This document shows positions 8,873 through 10,748 of a stretch of 64,000 nt of DNA, piece after piece. Each line of letters begins with the position of its first letter. The stretch's first letter is position 1. The position numbers were made by a program, and so were the translations under genes. This DNA comes from Cytophagales bacterium (GTDB lineage Bacteria > Bacteroidota > Bacteroidia > Cytophagales > Spirosomataceae): the NCBI GenBank assembly GCA_013298125.1, contig JAAFJP010000015.1, positions 62,001-126,000 on the forward strand, read 5' to 3'. The notes beneath the pieces were generated by a model, which saw only the letters and a list, made by a program, of their open reading frames with translations, did not search any database and was not told the DNA's origin.

Positions 8873-9925
8873 TTATTTCTCTAAATAACCCTCAAAACCC
8901 TCTGATTGCCACATTTTTAATTTTCCTTTTCGTATTTCAGCCATCAATAATTCACAATTTGGCATAGACCTTATCAACCTCAAAGCCTTCTTGACCGACA
9001 GCACACTACACGCTGTTGCAAGCCAATCCGCCGTTGCACCATCGGGAGCAATTACGGTTACATTCCGTTGATGCGTTACGCCCAAACCCGTATGTGGATT
9101 CACAATATGTGAGTATCTTTTTCCATTAATTTCCACAAACTGATACATATTTCCAGAAGTCGCAACTGCCTGATTTTGAAGAACTAAATATCGTGAAATT
9201 AGCTCTTCGGAGTTAGGAATGGTTACGCCAATGCGTAGCCCCCTACCCCCCCGAGGGGGAATTGACACGGAAGAATCTTTGGATGTTGTAGCTCCTCCTC
9301 TGGGGGCGGGGGGGGCGTACATCGCCAAATCTCCTCCCGCATCCACCAAAACCTTTTCAATGCCCTCATTCCTACAAAAATTAACAATTACCTGAGCAAC
9401 ATATCCTTTGGCAATTCCTCCTAAATCTAATTGTGTATTAGGTTCTAAAAGTTTAACAGAATAATTTAATGAATCTAAGATAATAGATTGATAACCAACA
9501 CTTTGTAACGTATTTTTCAAAACATTTTTTTCTGGTAAAACCTTTTCTTTCCGTGCTTTTCGCCATAGTTTTACGATGCCTCCAACGGTTATATCATACG
9601 CCCCTTTGCTTTTGTTTGATGCCTTTATAGATAAATCTAATATATCCCATAAAGCGGGTGAAACCGTTGTAAATTCATTTGTACCAGCTTTTTTACTCAA
9701 CAAATTCAGCTCACTATTTTCTACATAATCACTGTAAATTAAATTCAAAGAATCCGCAATTTTGTAGGCTTCTGTGGCGATTTGATTGGCTTTTGTAGAA
9801 TCATTAGCATACAGAGTAATGTTCAAAGGTGAACCCATTTTAGGTTGCGAGAAGGTGTATTTTTTGGGTTGAGAGTAAGTAGATAATGAATTGATTATCA
9901 GAAAGATAAATAATAGTTTTTTCAT
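8873..9925 (-). CDS. apbE: FAD:protein FMN transferase (ApbE family) with in-frame palindromic insertion
   Basis: 350 residues with a signal peptide (about 1-18). ApbE covalently attaches FMN to threonine in redox proteins such as Nqr/Rnf subunits at the periplasmic side. Motifs seen: GAYDITVGGIVKLWR (about 108-122), QLDLGGIAKGYVA (165-177), VDAGGDLA (194-201) and SGNMYQFVEINGKRYSHIVNPHTG with the downstream DGATADWLATA. Between GGDL and RIGVTIPNSE is an extra stretch at about residues 204-229, rich in Pro, Arg, Gly and Ser, encoded by a G/C-rich inverted repeat (about 9237-9318). Family members normally have only a short loop here. The reading frame remains open, so the enzyme may still fold. 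Confidence 0.9.
   Translation of the reverse strand: MKKLLFIFLIINSLSTYSQPKKYTFSQPKMGSPLNITLYANDSTKANQIATEAYKIADSLNLIYSDYVENSELNLLSKKAGTNEFTTVSPALWDILDLSIKASNKSKGAYDITVGGIVKLWRKARKEKVLPEKNVLKNTLQSVGYQSIILDSLNYSVKLLEPNTQLDLGGIAKGYVAQVIVNFCRNEGIEKVLVDAGGDLAMYAPPAPRGGATTSKDSSVSIPPRGGRGLRIGVTIPNSEELISRYLVLQNQAVATSGNMYQFVEINGKRYSHIVNPHTGLGVTHQRNVTVIAPDGATADWLATACSVLSVKKALRLIRSMPNCELLMAEIRKGKLKMWQSEGFEGYLEK
9237..9318. repeat. GC-rich palindromic element inserted in frame within apbE
   Basis: Imperfect inverted repeat: about 9237-9270 (GCCCCCTACCCCCCCGAGGG) against about 9286-9318 (CTCCTCTGGGGGCGGGGGGG). It is far more GC-rich than the surrounding gene and encodes about 26-27 residues that normal ApbE proteins lack. 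The length and frame allow read-through without a stop. Confidence 0.7.
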
Positions 9926-9970: not shown

Positions 9971-10027
9971 AAAAGACTTCCTACAAAAGTGTTTTATAAT
10001 TCAAAACACTTTTGTAGGAAGTCTTTT
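9971..10027. terminator. Strong bidirectional-type hairpin between sodA and apbE
   Basis: Perfect 25-bp inverted repeat: 9971-9995 against 10003-10027 (AAAAGACTTCCTACAAAAGT...), loop of 7 nt, with a T run after and an A run before. It lies about 110 bp past the sodA stop codon and upstream of apbE, so it should insulate the two minus-strand genes. Confidence 0.85.
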
Positions 10028-10139
10028 AAAGATCAGAAAGTTGAATTAAGCATATCTCTTTTTTGAAGAAAGGGCTTTATAATTTCGCATTTCATTACTT
10101 TCGAGTAGAAAGAGATTTGACCAGTATTTCAACCAATCA

Positions 10140-10748
10140 CTATTTCGCTGCCTTATAACGAGCCTCTGCACCATTCCAATCAACTACATTCCAGAAAGTG
10201 TCGATATAGTCAGGGCGTTTATTTTGGAATTTCAAATAATATGCGTGTTCCCAAACGTCCAAAGCAAGGATTGGTGTACCTTTTACATCTGCAACGTCCA
10301 TCAATGGATTGTCTTGATTTGGTGTTGAAGTTACTGCCAATGTTCCGTCAGCCTTCACGATTAACCACGCCCAACCCGAACCAAAACGCCCGATACCCGC
10401 TTTTTTGAATTCAGCTTTTAGGTTGTCTAATGAACCAAAAGTAGCATCAATGGCAGTTGCCAAAGTTCCTACTGGCGAACCCCCAGCGTTAGGTGCAAGG
10501 ATATTCCAGAAGAAAGTATGATTCCAGTGTCCACCGCCATTGTTACGTACAGGGGCAGGTAGTTTACTAATGCCAGCCATCAATTCCTCGATGGATTTTC
10601 CTTCTAAATCTGTTCCTGCAACGGCTGCATTAAGATTTGTGACATAAGCGTTGTGATGACGGTCATGGTGGATTTCCATAGTCAGTGCATCAAAATGAGG
10701 TTCTAACGCATCATTTGCGTAAGGTAATGGGTCTAATACGAATGCCAT
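10140..10748 (-). CDS. sodA: Superoxide dismutase, Fe/Mn family (Mn-type residues)
   Basis: 202 residues. Metal ligands are His27 (EIHHDRHH), His77 ([11 protein letters not shown]), Asp164 and His168 ([10 protein letters not shown]). Gly73 before His74 and Gln145 in PNQDNPL match the manganese-type pattern, where the active-site Gln comes from the second domain, so manganese or cambialistic use is more likely than strict iron. It has no signal peptide and is cytoplasmic. The gene is a single unit, with a strong hairpin downstream and a palindromic repeat upstream (10782-10900). Confidence 0.96.

Follow-up and report, generated by a model that had tools for sequence, protein, structure and literature searches.

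The best-known palindromic elements lying in frame within genes are those of Rickettsia and Wolbachia, which are often discussed in the context of reductive genome evolution. Those of Rickettsia form families RPE-1 to RPE-7 (Ogata et al. 2000; PMC3767692, PMC10969869); the same site sometimes holds different repeat groups, as it does in the genomes studied here, and the R. japonica paper reports that every Rickettsia orthologue carries its insert at the same position (PMC3767692). REP and REPIN sequences are dispersed and patchy in distribution; their hairpin-forming units are paired in inverted orientation and separated by a spacer (PMC3116915, PMC3733652). Intragenic REPs have been described in other species, CGTC-type repeats have been placed in Bacteroidetes among other phyla (PMC3733652), and Y1 transposase subclasses are recognized in Bacteroidetes (PMC6006769). 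MITEs can add coding sequence to genes (review, PMC10969869). In the literature on this group, covered largely outside subscription journals, we found no description of elements such as those reported here.

The element that is the subject of this study lies within apbE in a window of 64,000 nucleotides (the whole stretch of DNA that was analyzed). Like the palindromic elements of Rickettsia and Wolbachia, it is a short palindrome carried in frame by genes that are unrelated to one another and often essential, and its peptide is probably solvent exposed. Unlike the Rickettsia elements, it comes from a genome of the free-living type and from another phylum, has a GC-rich, two-hairpin build and a strong single-phase bias, and leaves clear empty sites in congeners. 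The sequence-only reading had likened it to the Rickettsia elements; that likeness stands for behavior, since 37 of 52 copies are in frame in unrelated genes, but does not extend to family membership, from which the element is set apart by phylum and GC-rich arms rather than by sequence comparison. It shares with REPINs the paired inverted units, spacer, and dispersed, patchy occurrence, but most copies are intragenic, there is no conserved GTAG tag, and no RAYT was linked to it at the loci examined. As in MITEs, the element is non-autonomous, with terminal inverted repeats (arms of ~23 bp) and no gene of its own, but neither a target-site duplication nor a partner transposase was found. On the features tested, the element is Rickettsia-like in action and REPIN-like in build and is not a member of either group.

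It is very likely that this is a non-autonomous mobile palindromic repeat whose in-frame copies survive in tolerant loops as translated filler. Here, the carrier is an environmental bacterium whose genome measures 5.9 Mb, and in its family members of several further genera likewise have in-frame elements in essential enzymes. The presence or absence of copies between close paralogues, in a probably culturable group, makes it testable how a repeat enters genes without killing the host; two further testable questions are whether new protein loops can originate from translated repeats and what enzyme mobilizes palindromes that lack a linked transposase.

The apbE copy

The features of the locus are as follows.

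8873-9925, minus strand: apbE (FAD:protein FMN transferase), host gene of the element, an uninterrupted ORF of 350 aa
9233-9319, minus strand: element segment standing for the native loop, codons 203-231 (YAPPAPRGGATTSKDSSVSIPPRGGRGLR), from an alignment with 17 relatives
9238-9260, plus strand: left arm GCCCCCTACCCCCCCGAGGGGGA, of the GCCCCC-TAC-CCCCC-CCG-AGGGGGA type, a small hairpin by itself (arm pattern, C7:71238-71260)
9261-9292, no strand: spacer of ~32 nt coding for a Ser/Thr/Asp/Lys-containing stretch (sequence and comparison of coding copies)
9293-9315, minus strand: right arm CTCCTCTGGGGGCGGGGGGGGC, inverted relative to the left arm (arm pattern, C7:71293-71315)

The product matches the Pfam ApbE family (PF02424, 6.6e-64) and solved ApbE structures (phmmer and Foldseek). 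A GC-rich imperfect inverted repeat with an open frame, as originally read from the DNA, is indeed present at 9238-9315, and its right arm is a degenerate reverse complement of the left. The repeat has the form GCCCCC-nnn-CCCCC-xxx-GGGGGA, followed by the spacer and then by the inverted, degenerate second arm; both arms are small hairpins in themselves. An inverted-repeat search over 9100-9450 returned no inverted pair, the arms probably being too decayed for the search thresholds. Folded alone, the apbE copy was moderately better than its shuffles (z -1.6), whereas a better-kept family member (L120) gave a near-perfect hairpin (z -10.7); the apbE copy therefore looks like a decayed member of the family. 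Separately, a perfect-looking 26-bp hairpin (z -10 as RNA) at 9972-10028, between apbE and a superoxide dismutase-like gene (10140-10748, minus strand), is probably a terminator.

The ApbE of the sister L036 reads DLAM-VSQDDKPWK-IGV across this region; it and two others (L038 and L039) have a 9-residue native loop, VSQDDKPWK or VTQVDKPWK, and the loops of 13 more distant relatives are likewise short. The element is missing from 16 of the 17 related ApbEs, and the sole carrier, L037, has similar element DNA in the same loop. Hence, the extra residues are not a feature of most ApbE proteins of the clade encoded by unrelated DNA. The original estimate of about 26 extra residues was right as to an insertion, but not as to its size or to simple addition: about 29 residues (203-231) replace 9, a net gain of 20. 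An AlphaFold2 model built with 18 ApbE sequences had a mean pLDDT of 85, and the only segment with a pLDDT of <50 comprised residues 209-227, between strands 199-203 and 230-238. Foldseek matched the model to solved ApbE structures (TMq of 0.72 to 0.79 among the ApbE hits). In the model, the insert, which the first reading had put in a loop, forms a loop predicted to be disordered; it runs from one strand to another, and the ApbE fold appears to be intact.

A dispersed repeat family

The genome of the window (G000) is an incomplete, Arcicella-like freshwater metagenome-assembled genome (MAG) of 5.85 Mb in 72 contigs, with a completeness of 95.5%. BLAST of the apbE segment against it gave 52 matches. 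The arm pattern matched 106 times (51 + 55), compared to 0 times for the reversed-pattern control, which corresponds to about 55 elements; the palindrome therefore belongs to a dispersed family, mostly in frame within other genes. Most elements are 57 to 90 bp long, with two inverted hairpin-forming arms of ~23 bp each around a spacer. Arm pairs were sought at spacings of up to ~200 bp, and the copies studied were stretches with flanks around the listed matches together with 13 arbitrary control chunks of 20 kb, which added a single copy, the GAT-core variant L130. Searches of Rfam and of phage and plasmid collections gave no match to the element. In nirB (L113:3001-3141), a second left arm is nested within the element and the frame is still open; extra arms are also present in the G004 orthologue (L231). 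A 15-bp addition within one arm (GCGACCGACGCTTCG) is common to L231, L254, and L271 (right arms), L244 (left arm), and L107, from several genomes, and is a possible sub-lineage marker.

Empty and shared loops

Orthologues in G001, G007, and G004 were located with a chimeric query of flanking sequences. For 18 host genes besides apbE, the orthologues aligned or located had short, variable native loops, with two exceptions in G004: the loop in question is occupied by a separate copy with a GAA core in PBP1C, and by elements also in nirB (L231). Because orthologues without the element have a native loop in its place, native residues have been replaced and not merely added to. Two leuS genes of G000 with ~93% identity and unrelated flanks (L086:2124-5051 and L088:2139-5066) have one element in common; a second is present in L086 only, and a third site is occupied by the element in L088 and by a different palindrome in L086. 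This other palindrome (CACCCCTCTCATAATGGAGAGGGGCAGGGGGTGAGG) lies at about codon 538 of the L086 gene.

Mobility is suggested by these dispersed copies, which are patchy between species and present or absent between orthologues and between leuS paralogues. The repeat would spread through the genome without aiming at reading frames; most insertions into genes would be lost, and the survivors would be those in variable, probably solvent-exposed loops, with loss of native loop residues at or after insertion.

Where two species carry the element in one orthologous gene, the site is usually the same loop. Such cases are leuS (three sites, G000 and G013), valS (G013), uvrA and apbE (G035), and, with G004, PBP1C, nirB, L114/L241, and L130/L226. 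The copies in a shared loop often differ in the core triplet in both arms, as do the copies of an orthologous intergenic element (L108/L252), which points to re-insertion at tolerant loops or conversion between copies. It could also be that same-loop elements in different genera are old insertions followed by loss or conversion, which would count against the mobile-repeat reading. One alternative is accordingly that the loops are old landing sites, entered ancestrally or re-entered, and that copies were later lost or were overwritten by gene conversion from other copies. Losses and concerted evolution would then have shaped the distribution to a greater extent than new insertions. The shared leuS, valS, uvrA, apbE, PBP1C, and nirB loops, and core triplets that have changed in both arms even in the intergenic copy, favor this explanation; in most comparisons, however, the sister loops are native and alignable, with no trace of the element, and leuS paralogues that are ~93% identical differ in element content. 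We consider the explanation a serious contender, but on balance unlikely.

Other repeats also occur in these loops. In three G004 and G007 orthologues (L292, L296, and L298), heptamer-type repeats (CAGTTATCAGTTAACAGT) occupy loops that hold the element in G000; the heptamer pattern CAGTTAT is found 103 times in G004 and 217 times in G007, compared to twice in G000 and not at all in G001. The uvrA loop of G004 (L333) contains a long repeat-like stretch made of GATGTTCGATG and its inverse. We tentatively suggest, with somewhat less than even confidence, that a coding-adapted, REPIN-like repeat population of the Spirosomataceae re-occupies the same loops across genera (three leuS sites, valS, uvrA, and apbE) and within the genus (PBP1C and nirB), its arms changing together by conversion or re-insertion, and that these loops, which CAGTTAT heptamers and a CACCCC palindrome also fill, are zones of repeat turnover in free-living bacteria.

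Proposed movement of the repeat

Since neither a target duplication nor a linked transposase or RAYT was found, we infer movement from the distribution of copies only. Direct repeats of 4 to 9 bp were not in excess over shuffled flanks, although the loss of native loop bases may hide a target-site duplication. An inverted extension of the palindrome into the flanks, hinted at by one locus (L091), was not general.

A second alternative is REPIN-type movement, in which a Y1 tyrosine transposase (RAYT) would mobilize the paired hairpins in trans. The two inverted hairpin arms with their spacer are compatible with this, as are the target duplication not being seen and the presence of full-length Y1_Tnp genes in the genome; a single-strand, HUH/RAYT-like mover acting in trans would suit both the resemblance to REPINs in build and the failure to detect a target duplication. 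Against it, no arm lay within 1.5 kb of a Y1_Tnp gene at the 5 loci of this genome and the 29 loci of relatives that were fetched, and the GTAG tag was present at only 17 of 101 arm starts. Furthermore, the number of Y1_Tnp genes does not track the number of elements: G001 and G007 have 6 to 7 and almost no elements, and G014, with 22 arms, yielded a single weak Y1_Tnp match. A RAYT as the mover is thus possible but doubtful. The genome's two full-length Y1_Tnp genes (L031:1051-1613 and L032:1313-2195) adjoin other repeats, of the CGCCCCGATGGGGC and AAGGGTTTAAACCCTT types, which may be their own targets.

Probable translation of the in-frame copies

With ORFs called mechanically, and ORFs of at least 150 aa making up 83% of the control chunks, 37 of the 52 two-arm copies in G000 lie wholly within ORFs of at least 200 aa whose frame remains open. 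By Pfam, the hosts include LeuRS, ValRS, PheT, MurD, Ddl, UvrA, Lnt, a PBP1C-like protein, an ABC exporter, NirB, methylmalonyl-CoA mutase, ArgC, an FGGY kinase, an aminotransferase, and glycosyltransferases, among others. For ValRS, PheT, MurD, Ddl, Lnt, and ArgC, the element-bearing gene is the sole one found in this 95.5%-complete genome; judged from sequence, these proteins therefore very probably function while carrying the element. When ValRS, MurD, and PheT were compared with solved homologues, the insert fell in a gapped or poorly aligned stretch, and for ArgC the alignment was poor around the insert.

One codon phase (phase 1), reading [AS]P[PL][AT]PRGG-spacer-PPLGAGG or SPSGG, is used by 31 of the 37 coding copies. 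The distribution over the three phases (31:4:2) differs from the stop-codon expectation (p=3e-6), and among intergenic copies phases 1 and 2 are open about equally often (10/30 and 9/30, respectively), so stop codons alone do not explain the bias, which could be due partly to copying from copies already in genes. The stop-free triplet CCG is commoner in coding arms than in the others (27/74 versus 1/30), and TAA is rarer (17/74 versus 19/30). The only clearly hydrophobic reading (MFPLWRLGGFLF) sits in a membrane protein, Lnt. Relatives were sampled at arm matches and not exhaustively; phase 1 was used by 8 of 9 in-frame copies in G004, 2 of 3 in G035, 6 of 9 in G013, and 12 of 15 in a further sample, mostly of other genera, including all four strict copies on the 7.43-Mb contig of G101. 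Over all sampled genomes, which as relatives are not fully independent, 59 of 73 coding copies are in phase 1. The surviving phase would be the one that gives a flexible, Pro/Gly-rich, stop-free peptide; this would be translated but not put to use, a filler that the host protein tolerates.

The strong phase bias and the recurrence of the peptide form in many genera could instead mean that the peptide has been recruited, perhaps as a loop for regulation or interaction, and is kept by selection. Changes in the arms showed no third-codon-position excess (24/486, 41/492, and 25/502), and there is therefore no sign of constraint on the peptide sequence; the spacers vary, those of coding copies being only slightly more alike than intergenic ones, the host proteins are unrelated, and sister species manage without the insert. 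A selected role is thus improbable. Even less probable is the absence of the element from the finished protein through ribosome skipping or RNA removal (compare mitochondrial byps): the better-kept copies do form strong hairpins, but a skipped element would need no open frame, phase bias, or TAA depletion, and all three are seen, the frame being kept and stop free in 37 genes.

Distribution among relatives

Arm counts over 59 genomes are patchy: 106 in G000, 51 in G004, 91 in G013, 57 in G035, 62 in G055, 22 in G014, and 14 in G017, with many of the G055 matches being a related but different motif. The remaining genomes, including G001 and G007 of the same genus, have 0 to 5. Within the family, 13 of 151 genomes, from 7 of 36 genera, carry the strict two-arm pattern; the controls gave 0.

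That the apbE palindrome arose by chance in a native loop, or is an assembly artifact, is conceivable for a copy that folds only marginally better than shuffles in a MAG, but is effectively dismissed by the 106 arms compared to 0 in the control, the relatives without the insert, and similar elements in separate assemblies, a 7.4-Mb contig among them.

In G055, which belongs to another family, a related arm (GCCCCCAAACCCCCGAAGGGGGC) is present in many, often clustered copies, which are possibly a sister repeat family.
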